Shown in pieces: positions 946-34,282 of a stretch of DNA of 37,613 bases. Below the pieces are notes generated by a model. The model saw only the letters and a program-made list of their open reading frames with translations, was not told where the DNA came from and did not search any database. Both the position numbers and the translations under genes were made by a program. Position 1 is the first letter of the stretch, and the number at the start of each line of letters is the position of its first letter. The stretch comes from a virus, in the IMG/VR virus record IMGVR_UViG_3300010151_000046, positions 1 through 37,613 of that record; one strand, written 5' to 3'.

Positions 946-974
946 ATTATAACACGGCAGGAGGGTTATGTCAA
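946..974 (-). promoter_or_regulatory. Sigma70-type promoter for the primase gene
   Basis: On the minus strand TTGACA (974-969) is followed by exactly 17 bases and then TATAAT (951-946), a full consensus match in both hexamers. TGT directly precedes the -10, giving an extended -10 (TGnTATAAT). The -35 covers the last two codons of the resolvase gene (TTG ACA, then TAA). Transcription would start about 12 bases before the primase ATG, leaving a short leader with the AGGGGG ribosome binding site. Confidence 0.85.
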
Positions 975-1495: not shown

Positions 1496-1524
1496 ACTAT
1501 AACACGATTAAGTTTAGATGTCAA
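1496..1524 (-). promoter_or_regulatory. Sigma70-type promoter for the resolvase gene
   Basis: Minus-strand TTGACA (1524-1519), a 17-base spacer, then TATAGT (1501-1496), preceded by TGT as an extended -10. It shares CTTGACAT and CGTGTTATARTA with the primase promoter. The -35 overlaps the last codons of the preceding virion gene, whose stop is TAA at 1516-1514. The expected start point falls at or within a base or two of the resolvase ATG at 1490. Confidence 0.82.
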
Positions 1525-4733: not shown

Positions 4734-4761
4734 TAAATAGTTCTTCTAATATCTAAATAGT
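4734..4761 (-). promoter_or_regulatory. Two ACTATTTA motifs, candidate late promoter or RNA signal
   Basis: Minus-strand ACTATTTA occurs at 4761-4754 and again at 4741-4734, exactly 20 bases apart, and the following bases are also similar (ATATTAGAAG and ATGTAGGAGA). The second copy ends 16 bases before the ATG at 4717. The same octamer precedes the genes at 12006 and 26513 at 18 and 21 bases, which suggests a regulatory element and not chance in AT-rich DNA. Confidence 0.5.
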
Positions 4762-4772
4762 CATCTTAAATT

Positions 4773-4780
4773 AATTTATA
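4773..4780 (-). promoter_or_regulatory. T4-late-like box TATAAATT
   Basis: The minus strand has TATAAATT just after the stop codon of the 1276-residue protein, one base from the T4 late consensus TATAAATA read by gp55. It lies 55 bases before the next start. AT-rich gaps produce such matches easily, so this is a weak call. Confidence 0.25.
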
Positions 4781-4781
4781 G

Positions 4782-7700
4782 TTAATATATGCTCTTTTTG
4801 CCACCAGTTGGGCTAGGGGCAACAGAGCCTTCTCTCTTTTCTGGCGTTCCAGGGCTAGTTGATTTGGGACGCCTTCCAGCACCAGGTACCTTAACAATTG
4901 GCCCTTCATGAACCCGCCTGATGTCTTCACAGAGATCTGGAAGAAATGGAGTTAAATCCGGTATTGATAGCCCCGGGGGAACTGAAGGTATGAGCTTCCT
5001 TTCTTCTACACAAACCTCTTGTTCAACAAACTTCGTCTTGAATCCCAAATTTAAATCAATAGCCCTTCTGGTTTTACACGAAGTTATTCTTAGCTTGAAA
5101 TTATTATTCCAAATCTTCTTATTTCGGACTCCCAGTTTAATATTTTTATGTGATTCGTATGCACTGGATGCATCCTCAAGCCCAGATTGCACCTCATTTA
5201 TCACTGATTGCAAGAAAGCCGGCTTAACCTGCACCAGTCTTTGTGCTTTTTTATCCAAATCCAGATCTAAATTTGGAGACACCTCATAAATGCTCACCAA
5301 TGGATATATGGCGCCATCGTTGTCTGCTATCTCTATCTCGTATATCGGCGACGGATTCGAAACATTGCCATGGACATCAATAGCTCTAAAAATATAATAA
5401 TATTTTTGATTAGGTTCAACATCTTCTATGAACGATACCGCATCTAGCCTCGTATCTTGATATTCTGATAGCCTAGTTGTATATACGCGTCTGGTTCCCT
5501 TAGAAAAATCTTCATATCTAAATGGCGCGCTGGTTAAACGATACACCTCAAAAAAAGAAATCGGATCGTCGAAACCAAAATTAACCAAACCGGTTTTCAT
5601 ATTTTGGGCGCCGAGGACAGACTTAAAGTAATTTTTGTCACGCTGATTAATGATAATAGGTGGAGCAGTATAGTCGCCAATACCAGCGCCAAGCAAGAAA
5701 AGAAGCTTGTTGTTGACAGCGCGATAAGGAACCACTTCAACATCTGGATAGACAGGCGGCTTATCTTTAACCCTTCCCGTCCAAGTAAAATATGGAACTT
5801 CATGGATCTTCAACGAAGGAATCGATGTTACCAAAAACAATTCCGAGCAGGGCTCGGGAGGAGGGCATTCGCATGTCGCCTCCCATTCCTTCACTACCGT
5901 ATAGTCAACAGCAACAGAAGCAGGATTAGGATCTTCCTTTGTAATTTCACCTGGAAGCCACCCTGTATATGTCGTGGACTTTGAGCCGCCGGCGGAGCCG
6001 GCGTCGGTACCGTATTTATATACATCCGGACATTCCTCTGCCGTATAGTAGGTTTCAGTTATTTCAGGCTCCAAGTAGTCGCCGGCGCCTAGCGTAAGAA
6101 GATCACTCTCACTTAATTCAGGATCATATTTAAGGTATTCAGACATTTTTGTATATATTTCACAAGCAGCTTCTTGCTCTTCTTTTGTTGCGCCCGTGTC
6201 AGCGGCAGGGGGCGAATATTCTCCAAGAATCTTAAGCCCAGGAATTCCAATGTTTTCTATTTCATAATCAAAACAATAACAGAAAATATATAATTTGTGG
6301 CCTGTTGAAACATATTCTGTATAATACGCGCCGCCGAATTCGCCCTCAAGCTTGTGCACTATTTCTTCAAATGTTTCTAGTGCGGCAATTACTACTGTAC
6401 CTTCACAATCGAATACTGTTGGAACGGCTCCTAGTAAATTTCTTATAACTTCTTCGTTGACGAAATTAATTATCGTATTATAATAATCTGTAGAAGTCGA
6501 CATATTATTAAGTAAAAGCAATGCCTGCTCATCAGACAGGGGCCCATATATATCTGATGTTATTCCAGACTTGCCCTGACAGGGGGTGGGCTCTGTCGTG
6601 ATTGGCTGTTTCGAATAAAAATATTCCGTTCCAACCGCCAACTGATAAGCATAAACAACATATGTATATCTTTTGTCATATAGAAGCTGGGTGTCAATAT
6701 ATTCTATAATATCAACATTAGATGAATTAGATATCCATATATTCTGAATTGGCTGAACTGAGACTCCATCGGCAGCGCCAGCTAAAATGGCATCGGTTAT
6801 ACCCTCCTCTAGGGCAGAAAAGCCATCAGCGCTGATTGCCGAAGTAGAGTCACTATCGGAAAGTGACTCGATTTGGATGCCTTCTTCACTGAGTGCAGCC
6901 TGTACAAGAGCGTCATTGGCCGCAACAGCCGCCGTGTCGAATTTGGCTATCCTATAAGCAATAGTCTCAGAATGTGGAGTTTTGCCCAGCATCATCTGCT
7001 CGTATGAGCGAAGATATGTGTTTGTAAGCTCATTAACTCTTCCCGAGAGAACTAAGAAATTTGCCATATATTCTAAACTGTTCTTATATTTCCCTTCTGC
7101 CAGCGACATAGCTATGCTCGGGTTATTGGGCCCGATGAAGATATGATCTCCGCCTTCTTTCGAATTAATGTTGGGCGGGCCGGGGAATGGAACTATATTT
7201 TGTGGTATTTCTGGCCAGTTCTGCGCATACAGCCACTCATATAAATCGATGGTTTTAATATCTTTTTTGCCAAAAATTGGTTTTACAGATGTGCCTGCCT
7301 TGGTTGATGTATAATATCTCTTTGCAAAGAAAAACTTTGAAATTTCTTCCAGTGGAGGGCTGTCTCCATTGTTCGTAGAATCTGTGTATGGAGCGCCGAG
7401 GATTAATCCGCCCTCGCGTTTTGCGGCGCCTTCGGAAAGTCTTCGGAGCACAACGGCATCCATTTTAGAATCTTCTATGGAATTGGCATATGCCGTTAGA
7501 TTATCTGTACCGAAAGATATTTCTGCCTCTAGAGGCAAAGATTCAGAATATATGTCTAGACTTTTAACCCAAGAAATATTCTTGATTGGGATAAGAAGAT
7601 CTTTATATCCGATATATGTTATAAGCTTGGCAAACTCACGATACCTGCACTTGCTCTGGTTCCTAAGATATAATATGAACGGAACAGATCCGTCAGGAGC

Positions 7701-8612
7701 AATATTAAGATATAAGTTTGGAACTTTAGCTTCTGGGATTTTTTCTTTTGCCAGCATATCCTCATATCCTTTGGCATAGAAATTATAATCAAATTCAACA
7801 TTCGAATGCAGGGCGGAGGTTTCTCCCTCAAAAAAATCAACTTCTTGTCCAGAAAAAGGAGTATTGATATCAAACCATGAATCCCTATATACCCTAATTT
7901 GCCCTATGTCTTCTTGTTGCGGCACTTCTGGTGCCCGAATCGGTGGTGGATCGGATGGGCCGATATCGGGCAGTGATACGGTACCAGGTGCCCGAATCGG
8001 TGGTGGATCGGATGGGCCGATATCGGGCGGTGATATGGAGAAGGAAAGGGGCTTGACAGCCGCAGGCAACTCAGGCGGCTCAGGCGGTGACAATTTTGGC
8101 TGGACATACCCTTCGCACCCATCAGCGCCAAAGATAGGATCTTCATACGAAGCAGTAGCTGCGCCGGCACTTAAAGCGTGAAGGCGCGTGTTGATGATTT
8201 TTCTTAATATTTGAGATGGATTTCCATTTGTAAAATGATTGTCGAAATCAATTTTTTTAAGATAATCTTCCCAACCACAACACTCTTCTTCCTCTGATGG
8301 TACCGGATTACCATGGATATCCAGCTGAACCGGTTCAGACGAGATCCATGAGGTTGGAAAAAGATCTGGATTTGCGACAATGCGAACAAGCTGTGTTTTT
8401 GCTGGGAGGGTTGTGGCGCCCCAATAGCGCCTTGACCAAGAAGTTATTGGGCCAAAAACCATCTTATATGGCTTAAGATCAACAGGAAACCCATATTGCA
8501 TGCCAGTATTCTTACTCTGGATCCAAAACCTTCCCATAACATTACGAATATTATCCAGTGTTAACGAAAAGCTGCAATGATGGACATAAATATATTTTTT
8601 TGTTAGACTCAT
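4782..8612 (-). CDS. Large virion protein with FN3-like segment and Pro-rich repeats
   Basis: A 1276-residue protein. Residues about 193-228 hold two copies of a 19-residue proline-rich unit (DIGPSDPPPIRAPG), a likely stiff linker. Residues about 1017-1107 look like a fibronectin type III fold: a segment ending FEVYRLT, then FIEDVEPNQKYYYIFRAID followed by HGNVSNPSPIYEIEI. Such domains are common in surface-exposed phage tail and baseplate proteins. Near the C-terminus KIWNNNFKLRITSCKTRRAI is followed by a long Pro/Lys-rich tail. Cysteine clusters occur (EEEECCGWEDY, CECPPPEPC). No transmembrane helix or catalytic motif is evident. The start at 8612 has only a weak binding site, ATGGG, but lies 10 bases after the previous stop, which suggests coupled translation. 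It is probably a tail-fibre-network or baseplate-peripheral component; the exact role is unknown. Confidence 0.8.
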   Translation of the reverse strand: MSLTKKYIYVHHCSFSLTLDNIRNVMGRFWIQSKNTGMQYGFPVDLKPYKMVFGPITSWSRRYWGATTLPAKTQLVRIVANPDLFPTSWISSEPVQLDIHGNPVPSEEEECCGWEDYLKKIDFDNHFTNGNPSQILRKIINTRLHALSAGAATASYEDPIFGADGCEGYVQPKLSPPEPPELPAAVKPLSFSISPPDIGPSDPPPIRAPGTVSLPDIGPSDPPPIRAPEVPQQEDIGQIRVYRDSWFDINTPFSGQEVDFFEGETSALHSNVEFDYNFYAKGYEDMLAKEKIPEAKVPNLYLNIAPDGSVPFILYLRNQSKCRYREFAKLITYIGYKDLLIPIKNISWVKSLDIYSESLPLEAEISFGTDNLTAYANSIEDSKMDAVVLRRLSEGAAKREGGLILGAPYTDSTNNGDSPPLEEISKFFFAKRYYTSTKAGTSVKPIFGKKDIKTIDLYEWLYAQNWPEIPQNIVPFPGPPNINSKEGGDHIFIGPNNPSIAMSLAEGKYKNSLEYMANFLVLSGRVNELTNTYLRSYEQMMLGKTPHSETIAYRIAKFDTAAVAANDALVQAALSEEGIQIESLSDSDSTSAISADGFSALEEGITDAILAGAADGVSVQPIQNIWISNSSNVDIIEYIDTQLLYDKRYTYVVYAYQLAVGTEYFYSKQPITTEPTPCQGKSGITSDIYGPLSDEQALLLLNNMSTSTDYYNTIINFVNEEVIRNLLGAVPTVFDCEGTVVIAALETFEEIVHKLEGEFGGAYYTEYVSTGHKLYIFCYCFDYEIENIGIPGLKILGEYSPPAADTGATKEEQEAACEIYTKMSEYLKYDPELSESDLLTLGAGDYLEPEITETYYTAEECPDVYKYGTDAGSAGGSKSTTYTGWLPGEITKEDPNPASVAVDYTVVKEWEATCECPPPEPCSELFLVTSIPSLKIHEVPYFTWTGRVKDKPPVYPDVEVVPYRAVNNKLLFLLGAGIGDYTAPPIIINQRDKNYFKSVLGAQNMKTGLVNFGFDDPISFFEVYRLTSAPFRYEDFSKGTRRVYTTRLSEYQDTRLDAVSFIEDVEPNQKYYYIFRAIDVHGNVSNPSPIYEIEIADNDGAIYPLVSIYEVSPNLDLDLDKKAQRLVQVKPAFLQSVINEVQSGLEDASSAYESHKNIKLGVRNKKIWNNNFKLRITSCKTRRAIDLNLGFKTKFVEQEVCVEERKLIPSVPPGLSIPDLTPFLPDLCEDIRRVHEGPIVKVPGAGRRPKSTSPGTPEKREGSVAPSPTGGKKSIY
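7930..8035. repeat. 57-base tandem repeat inside a virion gene
   Basis: Two adjacent units start at 7930 and 7987 and are almost identical over about 50 bases: the first 43 match exactly, then there are scattered changes. The period of 57 keeps the frame and encodes PDIGPSDPPPIRAPG twice in the 1276-residue protein. The near identity points to a recent duplication or ongoing length change. Confidence 0.9.
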
Positions 8613-8622
8613 ATTAAACCCA

Positions 8623-11600
8623 TTACTTCATCAAAACCGAATGAATAGCAGTAGCATTTTGCAGGCTAGCCAATCTATTGACTTGTTCTATCATATAATT
8701 AGTTAATTCTCTTCTTCTATTAGAAACATTTGTTGAAAAAGAATATCTTGGAGTTCCCGTAGAAGTTATCAAAAAGTGCTCCGAGAATACTTCCAACTCA
8801 ATGCCTCTGTCTATTCCAACGCCGATCTGTGGATTAAAAACCTTCTTTAGTCTACAGAGGAGCGGAGCATTCTTTGGTATCGATTTTAGAACTGTAGGAG
8901 TTAAAGGATTAAAGATTGGAGCCTTGAGTTGGTGTCCAAAGCTGGTGGACTCATATCCTGCAAAATATTCAACCTCAACCACATTAGAATAGTTAAATTT
9001 AAAAATATTTTTAAGTTCCGGATCAGTCAAAAGATCTTTTTGGTTATCCAGCCAATTCCTAGAAGATTGACTTCTTCCGAAAAACAAAGATCTTATACCC
9101 TGTGGCATATCTCGCAGATGACGGACACTTAACTCATTCGCCAAGTTATCAGCATTTCTAAGGTCAAATTTATTAATTGACAAGCGCAAAGCAATATCAG
9201 ACTCTCTATCTGTCCTCTTCCGCGGGGCGCCTGTCCACTTTACTGCATAATTACCGCCGGCGGACAATTCTCCAGTCTCAGCAAGCTTGCTATTAATGAT
9301 ATTGGCAATCTCTCTAGTGGCTTCTGCAATAAATCTATCATCTAATGTATCATCATCGCTTTCCAGTGTTTTGTCTATGTTCCTTGAATCGAAGTTGTTT
9401 GCTCCAAATAGAGTCGAAGTATCAGTCAAATACGATTCTTCGTCTTCGCAGCCCGAATCAGATTGAACTGCTATTCCCACCTGCGACAAGACATCCTCTG
9501 CTATTTCATTTTCTGAATTTAGGGGGTATAAAGATTTCTGTGAAGAATTATAGTTCACGATTCTTCCAACAATATCCTTGTATTTATCCAGATTATCAAT
9601 TTCGGAATTTTCACCGACAAGCTCCATCGAAGACTCGCCCATATAAACTTTAGAAACAGTGAATTGATTTGTCGTATTTTCACCAAGCCTCGTAATAGCC
9701 TCTTCTTTCTGCTTCGAAGAAAGCGATGAGTCTAGCTTTGAAGGACTAATTCTTTGAGGGGCGCCTTTGCGTGGCCAATATTTCTCTTTCTCTTGCAGTT
9801 GGCGTGTAACATAATCTGTTCTGTTGACATACGAAAATCCGGCATGCTTGGGTGTGGAAGTTTGTATAAACTCATATCCGACATCTTTATCTCCATTTTT
9901 CATTAAGACATCATCAAATTCTTTTCTTACTTTTATTGCTCCATAATCATTAAGATTCTTCTGTGTGGTTTTTATTTTCTCAACTTTTCCGGTGAGCCCA
10001 ACACTATATCTATTGTCTCCCAAAAGATCAATGATTTTTCCTTCTAAATTATTTAAGATTTCAACTATCGTCCCAATTCCACCTGGGGAGCCTGTCATGT
10101 CTGAAGCTATTGATAGGAAATAAGATATTATCTTTTTATCCATTTTTGTATCAGCAAGGCATTGCAATGTCGAAACAACAATCATTGTTATAGCGGTTAG
10201 AGTTTTCATGTGACTTTTCTGGTGTTTTTTATAGTTTCGCGTAAAGCTCCTATGAAGAGAGTTATAATTATTCTGAACTGATGCCTCGGCAAAAAGTTTC
10301 TCTGCGGCAAATCTAGCTGCTTGCATCATTTTAAGCTTGCCGTTCAAATATCTAATCGTAGGATCTTGAATTTCAACATTTACCACATATTGATAAGCGC
10401 CATCCGACATGTCGGCTATTTCATGATCAACAACAAGAAATGTGCGCAAATCAGAAGAATTTGCAACATTAATTTCTTTGATTGAGCCAATCAATTTTTG
10501 ATCTAAATTTTGTATACGATTGCTAGCAAGAGAATGTTTTTTTGTCTTGTAGTCACTCGCGGTCAGTTGCCCTTTATTAACATATTCTGGGGCGGGTGCG
10601 ATGTCCGAAGAAACAGAAATTAAATCTTCCTTCTCTGGCAAATTACACAAGCGCCCACCGGATATTTTTGGCACACCAACTTTGGAAAAACTTCCATGGC
10701 GCATCTCTGGGTCTGCTGCCCTGCGGCGAAGTACTTCGATGTTCCTAATCGCGGAGCCATTAAAAGCAGCCTTGCTATATATTCCCGGAAATCTTGATTG
10801 CATTTTTAAAATGCCGGCGAGATCAATATGAAAAATGAATCTTGCCTTTCCGTCTATTGATTTTTGTTTGTATGGCTCTGAAATGAAACTTCTGGTGATT
10901 TTATCCATTTCCGCGCCAAAGCCTGTCTTTATACTTTCAAGCATTTTAGACTGTTTGCTTTTCATAATATTACTAATGTCTAGATTCATTATCTCATTTT
11001 TTACCATGTGATTCTTGACAGTGAGATTAATAACTTTTTGCGGGTACAAAACAGGATGCGCGTTGGTGGTATGTCTTTCTCCACCCATGAATCCCTTTGC
11101 TCGATGATAATGATATGCGCCAGTCCAAGTCTTGCCAGAAGGCAACACCAATATAACGCCAGTATCAACTATATTTCCCTTCTCTATAATTTTGTTCATT
11201 GAAACCTTAAAATTAAACAAATCTTTTGATGAGTTATTTATAAAATTAGATGCCATATCGAATCCAAAATCTTGTTGCATTCTTTCAATGTCCAAAGACA
11301 TATATGAAAAAACAGCCAGATCTTTTATGTTTTTATTAGATACCTCAAAGGAGCTATCATATGAAAATTGCTGTTTAGAGCCTCCATTGATCTTTTTAAC
11401 TTTTCTTGTTTTATCTTCTGTGCCGGCTCGATGGTTTTTGATAGATATTGTATTTATCTGTGCTTTCCCATCTCTCTCTGCCGCTGAAAAAAATCTGTCA
11501 AGAAGAACTGTGTCTCCTCTGCCTGAAAGGGCTTTAGCAGCGCTGATGATATTAATATCCATTGCCAAAACAACTTTAACAGCTACAAACTCACTTATCT

Positions 11601-12006
11601 TGGTAGTTGGATGGCAATGCCCGTCACCCTCTTCGGTAAATATGGATTTCGTAGACGGGAGGGGAACGCTAGGGTAGACTGTTGCGCCGGCGCCGTCGAT
11701 ATCTGCGCGGGTATGGGGGCAACAATCTTCCCATGGCATCTCTTCCTCCACCGTCGTTTCGATGCCTATCCACCAGCCCGGACCGTCAGTCTCGACTACA
11801 ATTTCAGTTGGCCTAGGGTTGCCGTCTGCCGGTTCTTCGGGAATAAAGGGCCCTGGATCAATAGGAGTTCCTTGATCTGGCCAGTCCGTGATCACGGGTG
11901 GGCTAGGATTCCAAGTTCCCCAGTCCCAGATCTCGGCGGCGTCAAATATTGGATCGAATATGTTGCGATCATCTTGATCGATTTCCGGAACTCCCCTGCC
12001 TGTCAT
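8623..12006 (-). CDS. Large virion structural protein, acidic Pro/Trp-rich N-terminus
   Basis: A 1127-residue protein of unknown function. The first 140 residues are acidic and rich in Pro, Trp and Gly (GPGWWIGIET, MPWEDCCPHTRAD), unlike the rest. Residues about 288-325 contain a His-rich motif, TGAYHYHRAKGFMGGERHT then AHPVLYP, which could bind metal or knot a beta structure as in some tail fibres. Residues from about 330 to 1000 are Lys/Asn/Ser-rich and probably mixed helical, with several basic stretches (SFTRNYKKHQKSHMK). There is no signal peptide. The ATG has GGGAGA upstream. It overlaps by one base a 24-codon reading frame that I do not count as a gene. Position between other virion genes and its size argue for a structural role in tail or baseplate; no T4 counterpart is recognised. 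Confidence 0.78.
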   Translation of the reverse strand: MTGRGVPEIDQDDRNIFDPIFDAAEIWDWGTWNPSPPVITDWPDQGTPIDPGPFIPEEPADGNPRPTEIVVETDGPGWWIGIETTVEEEMPWEDCCPHTRADIDGAGATVYPSVPLPSTKSIFTEEGDGHCHPTTKISEFVAVKVVLAMDINIISAAKALSGRGDTVLLDRFFSAAERDGKAQINTISIKNHRAGTEDKTRKVKKINGGSKQQFSYDSSFEVSNKNIKDLAVFSYMSLDIERMQQDFGFDMASNFINNSSKDLFNFKVSMNKIIEKGNIVDTGVILVLPSGKTWTGAYHYHRAKGFMGGERHTTNAHPVLYPQKVINLTVKNHMVKNEIMNLDISNIMKSKQSKMLESIKTGFGAEMDKITRSFISEPYKQKSIDGKARFIFHIDLAGILKMQSRFPGIYSKAAFNGSAIRNIEVLRRRAADPEMRHGSFSKVGVPKISGGRLCNLPEKEDLISVSSDIAPAPEYVNKGQLTASDYKTKKHSLASNRIQNLDQKLIGSIKEINVANSSDLRTFLVVDHEIADMSDGAYQYVVNVEIQDPTIRYLNGKLKMMQAARFAAEKLFAEASVQNNYNSLHRSFTRNYKKHQKSHMKTLTAITMIVVSTLQCLADTKMDKKIISYFLSIASDMTGSPGGIGTIVEILNNLEGKIIDLLGDNRYSVGLTGKVEKIKTTQKNLNDYGAIKVRKEFDDVLMKNGDKDVGYEFIQTSTPKHAGFSYVNRTDYVTRQLQEKEKYWPRKGAPQRISPSKLDSSLSSKQKEEAITRLGENTTNQFTVSKVYMGESSMELVGENSEIDNLDKYKDIVGRIVNYNSSQKSLYPLNSENEIAEDVLSQVGIAVQSDSGCEDEESYLTDTSTLFGANNFDSRNIDKTLESDDDTLDDRFIAEATREIANIINSKLAETGELSAGGNYAVKWTGAPRKRTDRESDIALRLSINKFDLRNADNLANELSVRHLRDMPQGIRSLFFGRSQSSRNWLDNQKDLLTDPELKNIFKFNYSNVVEVEYFAGYESTSFGHQLKAPIFNPLTPTVLKSIPKNAPLLCRLKKVFNPQIGVGIDRGIELEVFSEHFLITSTGTPRYSFSTNVSNRRRELTNYMIEQVNRLASLQNATAIHSVLMK

Positions 12007-12024
12007 TATACTTGTCTCCCAATA

Positions 12025-12032
12025 TAAATAGT
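12025..12032 (-). promoter_or_regulatory. ACTATTTA motif before a virion gene
   Basis: Minus-strand ACTATTTA in the 76-base gap between the 361- and 1127-residue proteins, 18 bases before the ATG at 12006. The context ATGACTATTTA is identical to the upstream copy at 4754-4761. No hairpin terminator is visible in this gap. Confidence 0.5.
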
Positions 12033-12082
12033 CATTTCCACTTTTAAATTAACCGATGTGTTCATTTGCTTTTTCATAAATA

Positions 12083-13168
12083 TCAATAAGGTGTTTCTTC
12101 TTCGGTTGTTGTTGATGCGGCATCATCAGAACATACCGTCGTTTCAGTATCATAAATATCAATAAGATTGGTATCGCCATCATCAGGACACTCCAGTCGC
12201 CAATCAACATAAAGATTTTTAGATTCCAAAGTAGAGATTGAATTGCATATATCTAAGTCATCAATTTCACGATCCACATTAACATCAAAATAATATTTAA
12301 CAAAATTTTTATTTATCGGAATTCTCGCAGAGGGCGAAACATCATCCTCATCTAACAAGATATTGTTTTGAATTAAAGAAACTGGTTTTTCAAAAGCTAA
12401 CGCACTTAATTCTTTAATTTTTGTCGATGTTGAGCCGGATAGTCCCGCTCCTTGACCAGCTCGGGACTCATCTTTTATCACGAACACTTCAATTTCAAAA
12501 TTATCTACCTCGTATTCGGTATTCTCTTCAACAATATCCAACAACAGATGATCTGGATCTATCGATACATAAGTCCCGTCCAAGAAAAGTTTAGAATTCA
12601 ACACTGGATCTGACTCGAATTCTATGGTGGATTCAGAGCCAGTATTAAATATTGCTATTTCATATTCAATATCAATGTCGATTTGAGGAATTTCTAATGT
12701 TTGATAACTGGATGTCAGATATGGCGCAGATCCTGTTATTTCTCCATTCAAGACTTTGACAGACCACTTAACTGCTTCATCTCCAGATATTTTACTAGTT
12801 CCCAACGGATGAGTCAACAAATAATGCTTTTCTTCCCTTTCTTGCTCCACCATAGCCAATGTTTTTATGCGCGTTGCTTGGGCTAAATTAAAAATTTGCA
12901 AAGGAGTTTCATATAGGCTCTTAACGCTCGCCTCTCTGGAGCTTCGCAACGGAAGCGTGCGAAGCTGTGGGGTATTATCTTGAATTCTTTTTTCCACATC
13001 TTTTTCTTCTTCGGATGTCACGCCCGAAGCATATCTTGCATCATAAAGAATATTGGAGTCATGAAAGGAATAATATACTGGTTTTAGTTTTCCAATCGCC
13101 AGAAGATATCTTCCGTGCGGCGTCAATTGAATATCTAAAACTTCCTCTTTTTTATTTGCAAAAAGCAT
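12083..13168 (-). CDS. Virion protein with LTxxGR N-terminal domain
   Basis: A 361-residue acidic protein. Residues about 8-45 (EVLDIQLTPHGRYLLAIGKL, then VYYSFHDSNILYD) align with the start of the 299-residue protein at 3818-4717, defining a shared N-terminal domain. The central part, rich in Glu, Asp, Ile and Val, looks like beta strands, for example LEIPQIDIDIEYEIAIFN and DNFEIEVFVI. The C-terminus is a short acidic Thr/Glu tail, STTTEEETPY. There is no enzyme motif. AGAGGAAA precedes the ATG, only three bases after the stop of the 3160-residue protein, so the two are co-transcribed and possibly translationally coupled. It is a structural protein by context; its place in the virion is unknown. 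Confidence 0.8.
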   Translation of the reverse strand: MLFANKKEEVLDIQLTPHGRYLLAIGKLKPVYYSFHDSNILYDARYASGVTSEEEKDVEKRIQDNTPQLRTLPLRSSREASVKSLYETPLQIFNLAQATRIKTLAMVEQEREEKHYLLTHPLGTSKISGDEAVKWSVKVLNGEITGSAPYLTSSYQTLEIPQIDIDIEYEIAIFNTGSESTIEFESDPVLNSKLFLDGTYVSIDPDHLLLDIVEENTEYEVDNFEIEVFVIKDESRAGQGAGLSGSTSTKIKELSALAFEKPVSLIQNNILLDEDDVSPSARIPINKNFVKYYFDVNVDREIDDLDICNSISTLESKNLYVDWRLECPDDGDTNLIDIYDTETTVCSDDAASTTTEEETPY

Positions 13169-13171
13169 ATT

Positions 13172-19100: not shown

Positions 19101-22100
19101 ATCTGGCCTTCTATTTCGGTTTGACGGCGGGACTCTATGTTGGGGAATTTATGCCTATACTTGCTTCTTGTCAAGATGGTATCTTCTACCATGTTTCTAA
19201 TATTCTTAGAGAAGGCAGAAGATCCTGGTACCAATTGCTGAAGCATTACTCCCAAAGCCGTATCTAGCCATTTATAATAAGAAATATACTTATCTAAATT
19301 GGGAGTGTTTTCTATCCTTTCATAGAAAAGCTGGCGGAGCTTTGCCATGTCCTTGTACTCGCCGCGATATTTGTTGACTCCTTCTCCAATTAAATTATTA
19401 AACTCTACAATGCCGGCAAACATATTCAACATTTCTTCTGAAATTGTTTGATACATGCTCTTCTCAAATGCAAAGAAATGTTTAACTGGACGAGTCTCTC
19501 TGGTAAACACCAAATCATCTTGGTTTCGAATCTCTACCATGTCATGGCTATTCAAAACTTCAGGCAATTGATATCTTGCAGATGCTATATAATTTGTATC
19601 AACCGCGGCGGTGGTGCTTGTTTTAAAGAAATAGCCGCGGGCATTATATTGATTGCCAACAATAGAGGACATATCTGTGTCCCTGAATCTTCTCAGTGAC
19701 AATGAACCTGAAGAAAAGTCTTTAACTAAAAACTCGCCAGATGGATCAGAGCCTGTAACATTTGAAAAATCCCAATTCAGAGCCAGTGTCTCATATTCTG
19801 GCATCCACACTCCAGTCAATGGAGTCTCAAGCAAATATGCACTCTTATAGGGGTTTCGAACTCCGTAATTTTCTGTATCTCTCGCATGAGCTTGTATTGT
19901 ATTGTTTTTTAAATAACTTTCCCAGTGCCTCAAATATCCAACCTTGGCGCTTGAGTATTCGTTAATTGTACCACCGGTTACATTAGTTCTTCGCGCTCCA
20001 ACATAATATCTTCTCGGAACTGTAATGTCGGAATGAATTGCGTTACCACTTAAAGAGAACTCTTCTTGTATTCTATCATACGCCGTGTGTACGCCGTAAA
20101 GGCTGACTTCAACATGGGTGTTTGCGCCGTCATCACCCGGTCCGCCAGTCAAGTATGTGCCTATGCCGTGTGATGTAGCAGGATCAGTCGGTGTTATAGA
20201 GGAAGTCATAACATTTCTTGTTCTTAAGGCGAATGTCCAGCGCTGGTTATCATAAACGCCTTTATACAGGCTTGATGTTGCAATTGTTACATCATTAGAG
20301 CGATCAATCAAGTGGAAGCGTGCATCCTTCGATGATCTTTCGGGACGAACAGCCAAGACTTGATATCCAGAGCCATTTGTTGGCTTAATGTAATCATCCG
20401 GATCCGGATCTGCCTGATCCCATCCGAACAACGAAGAGTCAGTAAAAGTTATTTCATAATAATTTGGCTCCCCAACTTCCTTAATCCTCGGAAATATAAC
20501 CTCTGCCTCTGCTGTGCTGGCAAAATCTTTATGAGAAGCTGATATATAAGTAACCCCTACAGCATCTGGGTTGTCTGCCGAAGTTGCGCCGGGGGAGGAA
20601 ATCCAATGTGTAACAACAGCATCATGATTGTCTGCATGGAAAAAGTTGACATAATTTTTCTTTACAGATCTGGGCTTAAAATTATCTCTCAGCAGATGGG
20701 TGACATTGTCTCCGTAAAGATTAATTTTTATTAACTCATCATCAACACCGAAGCACCTGATTAAGTTTCTAAATGATTTCTCAGTCCCCTTAGTTTTGTA
20801 GATATACACCAAGTTATTATAGACATTTTGATAAATCAGATTTTTGATATCATAAATATCTTGGCTAAATTCTCTATCTTCGTCGCGATTCATAATTGAC
20901 TCTAGAACCGTTGCGTTGGAGAATATCTCTGGCGCTGTTAGTCCGTAGGACTCCAACAAGTGATTAGCAAACGGCAGAGGTTTGCCGCTTGAAGTCTGAT
21001 AATTGACGGCTTTCAAGTCTGTAAGCGCCTCTATTTGAAGATATATAGTATCAAGATAGCTGCCCATTATCTGGGTCAGATTCATAAGTTGATCATTTTC
21101 TTCTCTATCTTCGTCTATCATCCAAGATGGCATAGAATAATATAGGGAACTATTATTTCTTGTATCATGATAACTGGCAGATACTTTAAGATTTGATTTT
21201 AGAGACTGTACATCCGGATGAATCTCATAAATTATTGGATCTTTAAACTCATAAAGATTTGAACCGCTGGATTCAACAATTGCGGATCCTGTGCTTCTAG
21301 CGCCGGAAGCGTAACCTACCCAGATACCATTCGAAATTCTTCCAGAGTAATCGAGAATTGCTGAATCAATGGAGCTATCACCCACGACTCCTTCGTTAAA
21401 CTTATAATAAACGCCCAGTTCAGCATTTGCAACATCAGTATTCGTACCGCCTTTAACTTGATGAAGCCAATTTTTCTTTATCTGTTTGTGATTTCTTCTT
21501 GCCTTCCAATATCTAAATTCATCAATTGAGCCAGAAAGTTTCCCCCAGCCAACCATGCTATCGGCAGGCTTCGCAGAACGAGAAGGCGCTGTTTGCAGGG
21601 CTCCGATGAAGCCCATGAGAGATCCGGTAACTTCTCCAGCAACAGATCCCGTAGCGGTTGTGCTAACAAGCTCGCCGTCTCGATAAAATCTGACTATAGT
21701 TTTATTAGCAACAGCGCGCTCGTTAACAACTGAAAATGCGTAGTGGTGCCACTTATTATCGGCGACAGAAGCAGTCGTGACAGTCGTCCCACCAAGAGGC
21801 ATTGCTTCGAAGCCAGAGCCGTCAGGTGTGTCTTGTACGACACCACCAGACAAGAAAGTAAATCTGAATGGGTTAGCGCCATCTTCGGCATATCCGGATG
21901 CTGTTAATTCTAGACGGAGACGGCCATACTGTGGACTAGAGGAAGTTACTTGATTCCATAAGTCAAAAATAACCTCTTTTTGTGTCTTACTGGCGATAAA
22001 TGATTCTTTCTTTAGCCAGAATTCAACGGTAATTCCGTCATCCAAATTCATTCTTAGATTGGATTCACGGGTACCATCAACACCAAGAGAGGAAGATCTT

Positions 22101-22654
22101 GATGTTGTATATATATTCGTATCATAATAATTAGAGCCAGTGAAAGACTGCGCCAGTGAGCCCGATGGCATGCCGGCAGAAGCACTGTGCGGGCCACCTC
22201 TGACTTCAATATATTCTTTGCCCGTAGGCTCGCCATAGTACAGGTTGGCAGCTATGGGAGAGGTATCACCCGCACCCCAGCCTCCATTGTGATCAGAAGA
22301 ATCATGAGGAGAAAATGTAATATATCCTGTAGTTCTTGGATACAGATTACTTAAAACATATTTATCAATATAAGTTGATTTATTATAGAAATCATTTATA
22401 TCTGCTTCTGTTCCATCGTATGGAAATTGCCTATAAATCCTTTCGATTGAATCATTATAATATTTCTCGGCAGAACCAAATCTTGCAAAATTCTCAGGAT
22501 TAGAATAATCTACCTGTGGTATAAATCTTTCTACATCCGAAAACCTTTCGTCGATGTTCCTATCAGACTCAGCATCTTCTCTGATATCATGGATATTAGT
22601 TGAAGCTAAGATTTTAAGGGATTCATTTTTTTCAAAAAGATCTCTAATGCTCAT
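13172..22654 (-). CDS. Giant 3160-residue virion protein with LamG-like domain
   Basis: A 9.5-kb uninterrupted gene. Residues about 185-400 form a LamG/concanavalin-type beta sandwich: DGITVEFWLKK, then GRLRLELTASG, then KWHHYAFSVVNE, FYRDGELVSTTATG and GSIDEFRYWKARRNHKQIKK. These sites are the classic order of that fold, which commonly binds sugars. A long beta-rich middle follows with no motif I recognise. A distinct, better-ordered region around residues 2880-3085 includes PVLDFVTFTEEVQPIVMHI and YSYNWPYDFFSLIELAKID. The end is a disordered Pro/Thr tail with eleven consecutive Thr. It lies two genes after the gp6-like protein, the slot occupied by wedge and fibre-anchoring proteins gp7-gp10 in T4, so a baseplate-peripheral, host-contacting role is a fair inference. 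It is far longer than any T4 baseplate protein. The start has GGAG and TAGG upstream. Confidence 0.82.
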   Translation of the reverse strand: MSIRDLFEKNESLKILASTNIHDIREDAESDRNIDERFSDVERFIPQVDYSNPENFARFGSAEKYYNDSIERIYRQFPYDGTEADINDFYNKSTYIDKYVLSNLYPRTTGYITFSPHDSSDHNGGWGAGDTSPIAANLYYGEPTGKEYIEVRGGPHSASAGMPSGSLAQSFTGSNYYDTNIYTTSRSSSLGVDGTRESNLRMNLDDGITVEFWLKKESFIASKTQKEVIFDLWNQVTSSSPQYGRLRLELTASGYAEDGANPFRFTFLSGGVVQDTPDGSGFEAMPLGGTTVTTASVADNKWHHYAFSVVNERAVANKTIVRFYRDGELVSTTATGSVAGEVTGSLMGFIGALQTAPSRSAKPADSMVGWGKLSGSIDEFRYWKARRNHKQIKKNWLHQVKGGTNTDVANAELGVYYKFNEGVVGDSSIDSAILDYSGRISNGIWVGYASGARSTGSAIVESSGSNLYEFKDPIIYEIHPDVQSLKSNLKVSASYHDTRNNSSLYYSMPSWMIDEDREENDQLMNLTQIMGSYLDTIYLQIEALTDLKAVNYQTSSGKPLPFANHLLESYGLTAPEIFSNATVLESIMNRDEDREFSQDIYDIKNLIYQNVYNNLVYIYKTKGTEKSFRNLIRCFGVDDELIKINLYGDNVTHLLRDNFKPRSVKKNYVNFFHADNHDAVVTHWISSPGATSADNPDAVGVTYISASHKDFASTAEAEVIFPRIKEVGEPNYYEITFTDSSLFGWDQADPDPDDYIKPTNGSGYQVLAVRPERSSKDARFHLIDRSNDVTIATSSLYKGVYDNQRWTFALRTRNVMTSSITPTDPATSHGIGTYLTGGPGDDGANTHVEVSLYGVHTAYDRIQEEFSLSGNAIHSDITVPRRYYVGARRTNVTGGTINEYSSAKVGYLRHWESYLKNNTIQAHARDTENYGVRNPYKSAYLLETPLTGVWMPEYETLALNWDFSNVTGSDPSGEFLVKDFSSGSLSLRRFRDTDMSSIVGNQYNARGYFFKTSTTAAVDTNYIASARYQLPEVLNSHDMVEIRNQDDLVFTRETRPVKHFFAFEKSMYQTISEEMLNMFAGIVEFNNLIGEGVNKYRGEYKDMAKLRQLFYERIENTPNLDKYISYYKWLDTALGVMLQQLVPGSSAFSKNIRNMVEDTILTRSKYRHKFPNIESRRQTEIEGQIKGIYELTYNWRKGHAPMYSSDTKTVHPQPQGKNCLWWLHRAERHGASATSDKASIDHASSLVAVIDEQRNNFKRVGFSFVSASVPEFTALQGTPGISKFGINNIPIYAGSYYPNNRFSRPYRLFVATGFNSKAILGAWNSSLGPGSNPVIGPSSKYTYWRHATSFTETTTFIEITNLKEIGACDKNPHPVHPPDGVFPVREKGPIIIAEAVDGKGNTFKSSMVTPFSLYKNSVSTGYKSVLSGITVSKRDGTSAAGGIELNNLHQDVVETGEVSMQGPFAEKYVGGLPHRHVDLNTSKAGSLDSLSSRPEGWKFTISSTGVKILHQDSDKPRGDYYRNVKAKRPVNIRNIQALTGTAKLNKIGNFANHYELVQTSDRSINNRAFVKNEGFGGMLPSNTDASLITDIMDYKKADFSIAKSPLGATKHVIVERFSAPGGPETAADANGGHGIDAYSGQYSPYNNLNYRNLSVRLPLRTLLANHANQFGFAFDSFAGTRTSTVSKHDYSGIPAFHKTNRNSALRHELSGSRTTSETTTRAPVHDNYYVTHEIPQSDTQYWWITGALANNFPEHRTVVLGHPHPDGTYSSSVSLTYRDGVTVGPGYIPAYNFVSASDYVTKARTNNVRYWGSPETFDKRANDATYSKGLYTTDFIGLNGNIVQIFDTDTLTLSGNAQSGQTNKVIFQYVNTVNGSDTGEFISSPVGGGAYEGQSAAVLNSLSLNRNGPYGYPTWKQIRVGETRIGRYLGDNNYITYTPSPGLHRVKETKGSRIDMIDRFGATRVHKEPPVVSDYFPLKFVLGITTATTAISRPIRMKSTYGNYRSGFSDPSLNRARGFIKPPPLSYETITGLYLDGGLEDPSSPVNSFINLCYKETIYPKEVNTYLRKVRQRDGYANNFWRLSQKDRAVLGKSKLSFNEIKAANTTFGSGQKRSSWNLDAIADAAFLGDGGVSGSITGSDSGMLQDYSAYVHSGLKAGLTASVCYARPHMLSATASLRSWTGPEVKETGSTSLAKSGAPLGRIQLFGGLTRWEAGEQAGKINDLGTFVSRSTTPAYDSYEEYSDDLRSIAQEYSVVPEFRISDHMEFYMNKRNGNFLVDNPKFLSIFGASSASLPQNSSQDKFYKIFTNSDFMKYFASIKRDHKELMNPTELTLTCKAAMKFLPYDGFYPSERTAQIATQFSKSYANHISYQGADASVGTSMRLRPILAPFFSPGIMFNTIKAGVACDWPIYTGSYKVHNPWNGDNSKKTDYFLIATASDPTLDSKGKLAGWDYRVPFEALAEPEKYIKNITFVDMEPHPSAAINVTCSWGGSGDQLYKMMSQNFLAEVPEFFLPKGEFSTLTSVPESQILPFDTGSVYGMRIKIRKSYHQERQPEALGTIGYFVPQDTIRDRSRLQESFTMYSRPSAFGPPVSGRNGIGHAHSSKQYDHLKIADSLQGINPSFTPPYYHGEAWCDIIVRPSSSYVSLDDILADSQKIYWRFDNRRLPAPANNTHPYGDLNINRFSMQLSSSFNLFQKASGKIIQYDILGNPMSVQDDETGNTTTWVMQPKFETPMYNFSDSGVHPISDGHKTLTIPTNCSESVAKGMWHQFGVTPTDPQKGIFLEVSDIPQSWQTKRVPMFNSGSHGSAHSIDVNQGSWDNSEYASIYNSGGSIESLLDKVNFPKRSVKLGQTAKKKIVREGVVAIPFMINKGKRKFFNLDKEMVKGILGMPNVSKMVPGDSVRQQIESMKKYVMPPVLDFVTFTEEVQPIVMHIFDFEYEFSQDDLSHMWQNLQPPSGKIVKKSEVKVTQKLLINEMFGEMGECAGSPLEDRLRWMVFKVKQRANADYFSKVAGYDQQTDPRFKFGIKVGRAMTGDQKIAEYSYNWPYDFFSLIELAKIDAELCFGPYDDSTPEELKYDTDRGKIEKGITPHDTDRPPRPDTPSPVPPSATAGTTAVGTTSQPTTTTTTTTTTTKVTQSQPVADASKSFNNALPERK
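13241..13280. repeat. Threonine triplet tract
   Basis: A near-perfect run of ACN triplets on the minus strand encodes eleven consecutive Thr followed by KVT near the end of the 3160-residue protein. Units are mostly ACC with ACA and ACT variants. Being triplet-based, slippage would alter linker length without breaking the frame. Confidence 0.8.
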
Positions 22655-22662
22655 AAGTTAAC

Positions 22663-24717
22663 CTACTCCACTCTAAATTTGAAAGTTTCTGGCTGCTCTA
22701 CCCAAGATCCTATGGATCCATTATAGTAAGCCAATTTGATTGCATATGCGTATCCTGGTTCGAAAATACCCATATCTAAATCAAAATAATTACCAGAGAC
22801 ATCGTATGACATTTGTGTGTGGAGCAAACTTCCTGTCCCATACGGTATCACATCTAGCTCATCAATTATTCTATATACACTATAGGAACCACTATCAATA
22901 ATTAAAGTTTTTGTCTCCGTTGACGCCTTTGTATAAATAGTTGGATTCCAATCTTTTTGTCTGGTGTAAATCCTAAATCTTGCCTGCTCATTCTTAGAAT
23001 ATATAGATTTTAAATTAGTAATGTTGGGTGCATACGAAGTAGCGGGGTTTAGAGCAGGTGTGTCGAATTTTTTGGGATAGAAGGAAGATGTCAGAAATTC
23101 TATTCTTCCTGTCTGGCTGTGCCCTCCGCAATTTGCCCACACTGCATATACTTTTGTTAAATTCGAAGAAAAAAGACGACTAGGCGGATTATAATCACTA
23201 GTTGAGGATGTGATTGCAAAAGAAGCAGAATATATGCCCGTTGAGACATAGCCTCCAGTAATAACTGTATTTCCGGCGGCTACTACACCTCCTCCCTGTG
23301 GGAGCAACACCGAAGATGTTGATGGAGAATTGTTCCCTATTGAGCCCGAATAAAGCTCTACCCAAATAGGGCCAGTACCGATATCGGGAATGTTTCTTAG
23401 TTGCCCTCTGACATAGTTATACATGTATATCGTATTTAAATTCTCTGCCTGTGGGGCTAGCGAACTGCTAAACCATGCGTTTCCCGTATCATCCTTCGTC
23501 GCGTCGTTCCAGCGCGCCTCAAGGCAGGGGCGTTTATAGAAGAATTCTGTGCCTCGGGCAAAGAATTTCTTTGTGTAATATGAAGTTGTTGATCCAGTAA
23601 CATTGTTAATCATTCCATTGTGATCTGTTCCCGCTCTTGATCCACCTGACTCAAACTTAGCTTCTTGTGATCCCGTAAGACGAACAATGAACCCGTGATT
23701 CTTTTTGCCGTAAGCCGTGTCATAATCATACCATTCGTACACCAAATCCGTAACATTAATTTGTAAATCTGCTGTTGGGCCGCTGCCGGTGACACCAGAT
23801 GTGCCAGCGCCAAAAGATGCGGTATATACTGGAGACTCTATGAAGCGGCCGCCTGCTCTTTCCCAAGCAACCCTAGAGCCCTCATCGCCGTCCTGTCTAT
23901 AAACCCAATTAGAGCCACCGGCGCCGTTTGTCAGATCCGTATACCCTTCCATGTCCAATCCGTTACCCTCGAACCATGTACCTGTTACTGCCTGTGTTAC
24001 CAAGATAGCGTCTTTTGGAAGGGTTTGTCCATGTTCAGCGTTGAATAACCTTAGATAAAAGTTGGCGCCGTTTGTGCCGTTAGTAAACGCCGATGTGGTT
24101 ACGGAAGATCCATCACCCTCGGTACCGTTCGCGGTAATATTGTCTGGTATTGTTACAGTGGTGTTTCCTGCCGAGCCTCTTTTCTTTTGTGTTAGCTCAA
24201 TCGAAGTCTCGTCGGTATATGACGACGGCGAGAGAGTCATCTTTAGAGTGCCGGCTGCGATTGCAGCAGTAAATGCCACATGCATAGCTTGTGCTGCTTT
24301 TGCCGTTGTATCTGCCCCGCTCGTGCCGATTAAGGTTGCGGTAGATGCGCTGATCGACTTTGAGCTATCAGTGGTGAATGTAACCGATGTTCCATCTGCG
24401 TTCCTAATAATTAATTCTGAATCGTCATCGTCCTCTAAATCAGTTGTGCCGGCAAAAGTACAAGAAGCTTTGCCCGACAGTTTCAACTTTCCTGCGGTGG
24501 CATCCGAATTAATCGTATTTGCGGCGCCGCTCAAATCAAATTTAATCAACGCTCTCGAAAGCTCTTGTGAGCCCGATGATTCCTGCCCATAGATAGAATA
24601 CACTTCTAGTATATCAGAAAGCCCCATATTCGCACCGGTGCCTCGGGTTTTTAGATCGCCTTGAAATGCATTAGTTATTGTATTGTCTGCACTTGCATAA
24701 TATCTTTTAATAGCCAT
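22663..24717 (-). CDS. DNRLRE-like virion protein with an inserted domain
   Basis: A 684-residue protein. The N-terminus (RYYASADNTITNAF, then QELSRALIKFDLSG at 51-64) and the later segment LVTQAVTGTWFEGNG (about 239-253) resemble the split halves of a DNRLRE-type beta sandwich, a fold of surface proteins. Between them residues about 80-218 look like an extra Thr/Ser/Ala-rich domain: RNADGTSVTFTTDSSK, AMHVAFTAAIAAGTLKM, then ELTQKKRGSAGNTTVTI. The remaining 430 residues are beta-rich without an enzyme motif. The ATG overlaps the gp6 stop (TAATG), so translation is coupled. Directly after gp6, this is the position of gp7/gp8 in T4, but no sequence likeness to those is seen. It is most likely a baseplate-associated structural protein. 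Confidence 0.8.
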   Translation of the reverse strand: MAIKRYYASADNTITNAFQGDLKTRGTGANMGLSDILEVYSIYGQESSGSQELSRALIKFDLSGAANTINSDATAGKLKLSGKASCTFAGTTDLEDDDDSELIIRNADGTSVTFTTDSSKSISASTATLIGTSGADTTAKAAQAMHVAFTAAIAAGTLKMTLSPSSYTDETSIELTQKKRGSAGNTTVTIPDNITANGTEGDGSSVTTSAFTNGTNGANFYLRLFNAEHGQTLPKDAILVTQAVTGTWFEGNGLDMEGYTDLTNGAGGSNWVYRQDGDEGSRVAWERAGGRFIESPVYTASFGAGTSGVTGSGPTADLQINVTDLVYEWYDYDTAYGKKNHGFIVRLTGSQEAKFESGGSRAGTDHNGMINNVTGSTTSYYTKKFFARGTEFFYKRPCLEARWNDATKDDTGNAWFSSSLAPQAENLNTIYMYNYVRGQLRNIPDIGTGPIWVELYSGSIGNNSPSTSSVLLPQGGGVVAAGNTVITGGYVSTGIYSASFAITSSTSDYNPPSRLFSSNLTKVYAVWANCGGHSQTGRIEFLTSSFYPKKFDTPALNPATSYAPNITNLKSIYSKNEQARFRIYTRQKDWNPTIYTKASTETKTLIIDSGSYSVYRIIDELDVIPYGTGSLLHTQMSYDVSGNYFDLDMGIFEPGYAYAIKLAYYNGSIGSWVEQPETFKFRVE
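24064..24480 (-). other. Inserted Thr/Ala-rich domain within the DNRLRE-like protein
   Basis: This stretch encodes residues about 80-218 of the 684-residue protein. It interrupts an otherwise continuous DNRLRE-like pattern and seems richer in G and C than the neighbouring DNA. The opposite strand is open across it (24062-24592), which reflects that composition. Its order (DGTSVTF strand, helix AAQAMHVAFTAAI, strand, GSAGNTTVTI) resembles small modules repeated in environmental phage structural proteins. The boundaries are approximate. Confidence 0.5.
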
Positions 24718-26513
24718 TATTCTATCGTTCCTCTGATATCGGAATTGGCAAATTTTAGCTCCATGGCAACATTTTCAGGAACCATAAGATATCTGCCATC
24801 TGCCGAAAGATTTTCCGCGAAGTCAAAACCGTAATCTGAATATAGTCCCCCTGTTTTCGGAACAATCTCCACATTCTTTACATCAACGATGCCGGGAACT
24901 CGTTTGTTTAAAATATTATATACATCAGTTACATATACCGGCTCTCCCATATATTTTGGGTGCCTAAATTCAACAGCCAAAGCTCTTTGTGCATCTGATA
25001 AAACTTTATATTTATTAACATCTGGGTGTGAAATTGCTGAAAACTTTATCCCAAAATTAACGACCTTGCCATCTAATATGTCTATTGTGTCGTGTATCAT
25101 TTTATATTTGTTAAGCCACATTTTTAAATTTTCTTTAAGGGTGCTGCTAGGAATCGTCAAAAGGCTGAAATCATTTTCAGCTAGAACATACATATTTAGA
25201 TTTCTCTTAAACGAATCCGGATCTCTCAACACCCTTACTCTCTTGACTGCGCCCAGACTTGACGGCATGCCATAAGCAATGGCTTCAAAATCCTGTAATG
25301 TTACTGCCCTATTTTGAGTCGCGAAATGATCAATCGCCCTCATTCTATATTCTTCTTTTGAAATGCCAGTAACACTACCAACGATAGCCTCTTCATTGGA
25401 TGCCTCAAAAGATGATTTAATTTGATTCCTTACTTTACTCGACACCAATGTCGGATCAGCAAAATCTAACACTGCCGAAGAGACTCTGTTGAGGGCACCA
25501 ATAGCAGCATTAGTGTTCTCTCTTGAGTTGGCTCTATAAGATACTGTCAAAGTAGTGTTTGCCGGGGCTACTCCAAATTTATCTGTATCCAAAAGCTTTG
25601 CTGGATCGAATGTGCTATCTGTTATGTAATTCCTAGAATGCATCTTCAGTACCAATTCGCTGGGCTCTGCTATCGAAGAAGTGTTTAGCTCAGAGTCAGA
25701 ACCATAGCCAAACTGCAAATAAAACTTGCCATCTATTTTCTCAAGAGTAAACCTTCTAGGAACAACGAATGGTTTTAGTATTGTCGGAACAGTAGTGTTA
25801 TCATCGCCATAATTTGTGACAGACTTATATACAACATTTTGAGTGAGATGATCAACTTGAAAATATTCGTGTCCCTCTGAATCAAAAACTGATATGATTT
25901 CAGAAATTCTTGTTGATGCTAATTTAACTTTTCGGAATTTCTGAAATTGTCCCAGAATTATATTCTCTCTACTGAACTCGCCGGAAACCACTTTTCCATA
26001 ATTCTTTACAGCATAGGAAGTTGGAACTCCCGTCGAATTATTAACTCTCGCCACAACAGTGTCGCTGTTTGGGTTGTCGAATCTAACATCTTCATCTAAA
26101 ACATATGTATTTCCATTTTTAGATGTTAATGTTGATCCTCGCTTCAATATCGGAAGATAATTCATGTTTGGGCCCAATCCAGTGTCATTTGCTGGGATTA
26201 TAACATAAAGCGTAGCCACTCCAGTTGATACGGAATTTTCAGCATGTTTGTACCCCAATTGCCGACCGACTCTGACAATATTATCGTATTCAACAGCAGT
26301 ATCTAGGAAAGATTCATTCGTCTGATAGTCCAAGTAGAAAGATAATACATCTCCTGCATATGCAACAGTATCCAGCATCAAAGAGCCGAAAGAAGCCTGA
26401 TTGAAGTCCTTATAAGTTTCTGGATAATAGCGTCTTGCATACTCTACTAAGTCGCTCTTAATCTCATTGAAATCTTTGCTCGTATACCTAATAGGGATTT
26501 TCTTGTTTGCCAT
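24717..26513 (-). CDS. 6: Baseplate wedge protein, gp6 / baseplate J-like
   Basis: A 598-residue protein, close to T4 gp6 (660 residues). The N-terminus has the hallmark of the family: PIRYTSKDFNEIKSDLVEYA, then DFNQASFGSLMLDTVAYAGD and LSFYLDYQTNESFLDTAV. The central motif RAVTLQDFEAIAYGMPSSLG (near residue 401-420) followed by VKRVRVLRD is the typical J-like core. In T4, gp6 dimers form the continuous inner ring of the baseplate that joins the wedges and drives the hexagon-to-star change. It follows gp25 by 32 bases and overlaps the next gene, fitting the gp25-gp6 wedge partnership known in contractile injection systems. The ribosome binding site is AGAAGGAA. The gap upstream contains an ACTATTTA motif. 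Confidence 0.9.
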   Translation of the reverse strand: MANKKIPIRYTSKDFNEIKSDLVEYARRYYPETYKDFNQASFGSLMLDTVAYAGDVLSFYLDYQTNESFLDTAVEYDNIVRVGRQLGYKHAENSVSTGVATLYVIIPANDTGLGPNMNYLPILKRGSTLTSKNGNTYVLDEDVRFDNPNSDTVVARVNNSTGVPTSYAVKNYGKVVSGEFSRENIILGQFQKFRKVKLASTRISEIISVFDSEGHEYFQVDHLTQNVVYKSVTNYGDDNTTVPTILKPFVVPRRFTLEKIDGKFYLQFGYGSDSELNTSSIAEPSELVLKMHSRNYITDSTFDPAKLLDTDKFGVAPANTTLTVSYRANSRENTNAAIGALNRVSSAVLDFADPTLVSSKVRNQIKSSFEASNEEAIVGSVTGISKEEYRMRAIDHFATQNRAVTLQDFEAIAYGMPSSLGAVKRVRVLRDPDSFKRNLNMYVLAENDFSLLTIPSSTLKENLKMWLNKYKMIHDTIDILDGKVVNFGIKFSAISHPDVNKYKVLSDAQRALAVEFRHPKYMGEPVYVTDVYNILNKRVPGIVDVKNVEIVPKTGGLYSDYGFDFAENLSADGRYLMVPENVAMELKFANSDIRGTIE

Positions 26514-26534
26514 GTATAATGTTCCTTCTCACAG

Positions 26535-26542
26535 TAAATAGT
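26535..26542 (-). promoter_or_regulatory. ACTATTTA motif before the gp6-like gene
   Basis: Minus-strand ACTATTTA begins four bases after the gp25 stop codon and ends 21 bases before the gp6 ATG. It is one of four copies found only in gaps of the virion gene block. Confidence 0.45.
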
Positions 26543-34237: not shown

Positions 34238-34282
34238 TGATTTATCCTGCTTTAAATTTAAAAGTTTCGGTTGCTGTTATAA

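Follow-up and report, generated by a model that had tools for sequence, protein, structure and literature searches.

The window, the whole 37.6-kb stretch of DNA analysed here, is a fragment of an uncultured T4-like myophage in which all genes lie on the minus strand. It encodes a gp55-like sigma factor, gp25, a gp6-like baseplate wedge protein, an M23 peptidase protein, a RuvC-like resolvase, a DnaG-type primase and, in the virion block, several giant proteins (Table 1). The M23 peptidase-domain protein (35315-36535), also in the virion block, is unmatched among annotated phage records. One contig, G001, is identical to the window, and the close relatives are G002 (IMGVR_UViG_3300030329_005813; 172 kb; gp6 62% identical), G003, G007, G008 and G009. 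More distantly related are G004 (IMGVR_UViG_3300031344_000002; 218 kb, 25%), Flavobacterium phage immuto and Microcystis phage Mel-JY01, and 529 relatives of the sigma factor are present in IMG/VR. The 1127-aa protein, when used as query in the relative scan, gave none. Gene starts were taken from a simple gene caller.

The window contains seven copies of the octamer ACTATTTA, all of them on the minus strand, against 1.9 copies expected on both strands, and seven was not attained in any of 100 shuffles. Four of the copies fall within the 362 bases that make up the 12 window gaps of at least 8 bases, where 0.07 are expected, and none of 4000 dinucleotide shuffles gave three or more. These four had been listed in the first-pass annotation, and their coordinates, coding-strand orientation, placement in gaps and distances of 21, 18, 16 and 36 nt to the following starts are all correct. 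The octamer had been described as always lying in a gap, whereas three further copies are located inside genes. Also, the longer ATGACTATTTA, thought to be common to two copies, has a third occurrence at 22-29, and the supposed 20-base direct repeat before 4717 is really an 8-base repeat with a 20-base period, in which 12-14 of 20 positions match. The box of the gp6-like gene recurs at the equivalent position in G002 (21 nt) and G007 (19 nt) and is found as the variant ACTACTTA in G003, the box of the 1127-aa gene is also present before its G007 orthologue, and the tandem pair with its 20-base spacing is retained in the 62%-identical relative G002.

Table 1. Putative promoter elements and the sigma factor gene in the window
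Feature	Position	Strand	Context
Putative late promoter box ACTATTTA	26535..26542	-	21 nt before ATG of gp6-like baseplate wedge gene (24717-26513)
Putative late promoter box ACTATTTA	12025..12032	-	18 nt before ATG of 1127-aa gene (8623-12006)
Proximal box of tandem pair (putative)	4734..4741	-	16 nt before ATG of 299-aa gene (3818-4717)
Distal box of tandem pair (putative)	4754..4761	-	36 nt before ATG of 299-aa gene
In-gene ACTATTTA	22..29	-	3' end of primase gene; also present there in G002 and G007, 35-36 nt upstream of next start
In-gene ACTATTTA	22934..22941	-	inside 684-aa gene, 279 nt before 3160-aa gene
In-gene ACTATTTA	29906..29913	-	deep in 2425-aa gene; found elsewhere only in the identical contig G001
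Probable variant box ACTAATTA	34280..34287	-	42 nt before 2425-aa gene (26960-34237); PWM score 14.8
Sigma70-type promoter TTGACA-N17-TATAAT	946..974	-	before primase gene; kept in G007 and G009
Sigma70-type promoter TTGACA-N17-TATAGT	1496..1524	-	before RuvC-like gene
gp55-like late sigma factor, 246 aa, presumed box reader	36825..37565	-	PHROG late sigma factor, 4e-6

The copies inside genes appear to be of more than one kind. The copy in the primase gene probably serves as late promoter for the following gene, located beyond the window, and the variant ACTAATTA, which overlaps the stop codon of the preceding gene and has a similar site in G002, is a probable late box of the 2425-aa gene. 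It is uncertain whether 22934-22941 is a promoter box, as the copy is kept in G002, G003 and G007 but the conserved peptide PTIY explains this too, and the copy at 29906-29913 is probably due to chance or codon usage. Taken over the genomes, 69 in-gene copies are found on the coding strand against 37.8 +/- 5.8 expected from codon shuffling, and 21 of the 69 lie within 60 nt of a gene 3' end, suggesting that part of them are probably promoters of the next gene, as at 22-29, and part reflect codon usage, as is probable at 29906.

Genome-wide counts of the octamer by strand and upstream of virion genes, which had been proposed as a check, were carried out in the relatives and are positive. In G002, 33 copies of ACTATTTA are on the coding strand and 1 on the other, and it is the top-ranked of all 8-mers in the interval 60 to 8 bases upstream of starts (20/33 copies, P ~1e-16). 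It is likewise first in G007 and G009 combined (13/20, 6e-14), followed closely by the sigma70 hexamer strings GTTATAAT and CTTGACAT. Of four more distant genomes, three (G017, G021 and G013) again have it on top, and G018 has ACTAATTA on top with the octamer in second place; in G003 and G008 combined it does not lead the upstream k-mer ranking. De novo motif discovery by EM in 149 gaps recovered aACTATTTATaa at approximately 53 sites, and in 18 records reached via the sigma factor ACTATTTAY occurs 183 times on the strand of the sigma gene and 11 times on the opposite one, a bias that is absent for the reversed pattern in the same records. When applied to characterized phages, the same k-mer pipeline places TATAAATA first in T4 and CATAAATA first in Ochrobactrum phage OC. 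EM on T4 gaps preferred tgTGgTAttATa over the late box, and hence the T4 control rests on the k-mer ranking. The T4 late box TATAAATA itself is unenriched in the two genomes in which it was ranked (ranks 1056 and 7189). The idea that the box is the T4 element read on the opposite strand, TATTTATA being the reverse complement of TATAAATA, was rejected, as box orientation goes with the genes.

Placed in the T4 late-box register (-13 to -6), the box reads ACTA[T/A/C]TTA. The two bases after it are mostly T or C at the first position and A or T at the second. In a single-substitution scan, changes are tolerated only at position -9, and a substitution elsewhere removes most of the enrichment before starts; the ratio of coding to antisense copies is 145:9 for ACTATTTA, 62:10 with A at -9 and 35:3 with C at -9. 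The median distance from box to start is 23 nt, compared with 26 in T4. A weak upstream preference, for T at -28/-27, where G is nearly absent, and for G at -32, was found in a first set of 54 sites and replicated at 74 independent ones (p 1e-6 and 3e-7 for the two T positions and 5e-6 for G); it is absent from the 22 T4 late sites examined. All four copies listed in the first-pass annotation have TT or TTT within -29 to -25, and in the tandem pair this is provided by the distal box, whose TTT covers -29 to -27 of the proximal one, the expected place of the upstream T element. That ACTATTTA is merely a product of composition or codon usage in AT-rich gaps is hardly tenable: the gaps are indeed AT-rich and codon usage explains part of the in-gene copies (37.8 expected of 69), but shuffled gaps do not reproduce the four gap copies, the strand ratio of 145 to 9 is lost together with upstream enrichment in most single-base variants, and the octamer heads the 8-mer ranking in independent genomes. 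Equal frequencies on the two strands and for the reversed pattern, which would support it, were looked for and not seen, which brings this explanation close to refutation.

The box and host-type promoters divide the genes between them. In G002, a late box alone precedes 32 genes and a sigma70 site alone precedes 20, and 3 genes have both. Across 27 annotated gene families mapped over nine genomes, the promoter directly before virion genes is a late box in 21 cases and a sigma70 site in 3, and before replication and metabolism genes it is a late box in 0 cases and a sigma70 site in 26 (Fisher 3e-11, an optimistic value because orthologues of related genomes are not fully independent). One gene seed in this set, first labelled 'ssb-like', is rather a pyrimidine dimer glycosylase and remains in the DNA-metabolism class. 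The sheath and head-tail adaptor genes are preceded by a late box in 5/5 large genomes, and orthologues of the gp6 and 299-aa genes of the window are box-led as well. Exceptions are HNH and PhoH genes, which are box-led yet not clearly late, and three virion genes located directly behind sigma70-like sites; many box-led genes are without an assigned function. In G002, a row of genes at 4.3-16.9 kb follows TTGACx promoters with a GTGTATAAT-like -10 and is probably an early-gene region. The possibility that the box is itself a host sigma70 promoter was rejected in view of the separate TTGACA-N17-TATAAT promoters at early and replication genes.

The same data bear on two further explanations. An RNA processing site, with ACUAUUUA or its immediate surroundings as the place where an endonuclease would cleave polycistronic late mRNA a short way upstream of ribosome-binding sites, had been offered as the second option and is unlikely. 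The motif is AU-rich, strand-specific and positioned directly before Shine-Dalgarno sites, like some phage mRNA cleavage sites; however, it marks virion genes and complements sigma70 promoters instead of co-occurring with them, and its spacing and upstream position agree with the T4 promoter. In divergent gene pairs its orientation follows the gene, so that it precedes the first genes of units for which no upstream transcript is expected (few cases). Preferred bases at a fixed distance (-28/-27 and -32) also speak against cleavage, as does the RNA at three window leaders, where no hairpin or other structure was found. An operator bound by a RegA-like repressor or a MotA-like activator, rather than the recognition element of a sigma factor, is about equally unlikely. 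T4 has regulators of both kinds, and the box does sit between the promoter region and the start, but no other -10 element consistently accompanies it (3/35 box-led G002 genes pass the sigma70 threshold) and it occupies the T4 late-box position, with T(-11), A(-10), T(-7) and A(-6) in common. A diverged late promoter for a gp55-like factor, as first suggested, is the reading best supported by the strand-biased enrichment of the box before virion genes in relatives.

The presumed reader of this promoter is the gp55-like protein, for which a match to phrog_234 is found in the window, G002, G007, G009 and G004. An AlphaFold model built with 47 homologues has a pLDDT of 80.6 (64 with only 5 sequences), and its best match is T4 gp55 in the open complex 7d7c (7d7c_F; Z 11.2, 3.1 A over 117 residues, model residues 28-153). 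Residues 181-243 form a near-invariant helix-turn-helix that is also present in immuto and Mel-JY01 and lacking in phage OC, whose gp55 is T4-type. Bacterial sigma B, S and 32 factors align on the sigma-2 and C-terminal domains of the model, the overall rmsd being large owing to the uncertain placement of the domains. When the PDB was searched with a sequence profile of the C-terminal domain, no sigma-4 was found, and a profile of the whole protein gave chance matches only; the C-terminal helix-turn-helix is tentatively regarded as sigma-4-like. The type of late box varies together with the type of sigma factor: T4-type gp55 proteins (T4, OC) go with ATAAATA boxes, and those with the C-terminal domain go with the TTT-core boxes ACTATTTA (window clade), TATATTTAG (immuto) and ATATTTAT (Mel-JY01), a pairing that is correlative only. 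The box predicted in G004, whose sigma factor was examined in part, is AGTATTTAT.

The T4 late promoter is TATAAATA and is used together with gp55, gp33 and gp45 (PMC2988020, PMC1524935). Similar to this system, the window clade has an 8-bp main box located approximately 14-30 nt before late-gene starts, an AT-rich stretch directly downstream and a gp55-type sigma factor. In contrast to T4 or (T/A/C)ATAAATA, the box reads ACTA[TAC]TTA, with A/C at -13/-12 and T/T at -9/-8, and the weak element at -32 and -28/-27 is a feature that T4 is without. The nearest published box is that of Aeromonas phage Aeh1, (a/g)CTAAATA (PMC1524935, PMC2988020), which has ACTA at -13 to -10 and TA at -7/-6 in common with it; ACTAATTA is one base off, at -8, a nearly invariant T in the window clade and A in Aeh1. 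In cyanophage S-PM2 the late box NATAAATA (PMC2984593) precedes virion genes of a marine T4-like phage, as here, but has a T4-type AAA instead of a TTT core. Searches of the open-licence literature turned up neither ACTATTTA nor CTATTTAT described as a late promoter of a phage. The boxes predicted for G004, immuto and Mel-JY01 share the TATTTA core of ACTATTTA and differ from it in the -12 base. The immuto motif also resembles the -10 of its host, TAnnTTTG, and may therefore be a host promoter. In the AT-rich G004, AGTATTTAT is a very strong upstream motif (GTATTTAT 32/67 copies, log10P -28), and Mel-JY01 (L205-L214) has a second upstream-enriched string around AACAACCTAACAGG.

The window sigma factor also differs from T4 gp55, which consists of sigma-2 only plus a clamp-binding tail, by its extra C-terminal helix-turn-helix. 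The clamp models PF02916 and PF00712 are unmatched in G002, G013, G017, G021 and immuto, a result in which a divergent clamp could be missed; the gp45 model PF02916 matched T4, the positive control. G002 encodes a 395-aa fragment of a family A DNA polymerase with a Pol A motif near the C-terminus only, and the gene is possibly split; the DNA polymerase of T4 belongs to family B. In G002, T4-like virion genes at 27-60 kb (loci L021-L022) are accompanied by this fragment and by UvsX, a DnaB helicase, GroEL and glutamine synthetase. Taken together, the family A polymerase and the lack of a detected gp45-type or beta clamp suggest that the clamp-activated mechanism of T4 may not apply, and clamp-activated late transcription in the window clade is doubtful.

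Judged from sequence, we put a probability of roughly 0.85 on ACTATTTA being a -10-type late promoter box recognised by the gp55-like sigma factor. The box would be functionally T4-like and departs from the T4 consensus, with two architectural differences, the upstream element and the sigma C-terminal domain. We infer that it acts at the DNA level, with the sigma factor as its reader and transcription initiating approximately 7 nt downstream. The gp55-like protein would bind the host RNA polymerase core and its sigma-2 domain would recognise the box, while the C-terminal helix-turn-helix may contact the upstream element or the beta flap. Subsequently, the holoenzyme would melt the AT-rich bases right downstream of the box and start a short leader bearing the Shine-Dalgarno site. 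Virion genes would thus be turned on late in infection, and early and replication genes would be driven by ordinary host sigma70 promoters. As a more tentative proposal, which we hold as somewhat less than even, a two-domain late sigma factor, in which gp55-like sigma-2 and a sigma-4-like helix-turn-helix replace T4 gp55 and gp33, could use a two-part promoter composed of G(-32)/TT(-28,-27) and ACTA[T/A/C]TTA and operate with no sliding clamp.

ACTATTTA is very probably the late-gene switch of a large group of uncultured marine phages and a diverged counterpart of the T4 late promoter. Such a late-promoter rule would make late genes of unknown function in this clade recognisable from sequence. 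It also suggests that T4-like late boxes include a second class, which has a TTT core and goes with a different sigma architecture, a combination that makes the evolution of the late sigma factor, gp33 and the coupling to the clamp directly testable.
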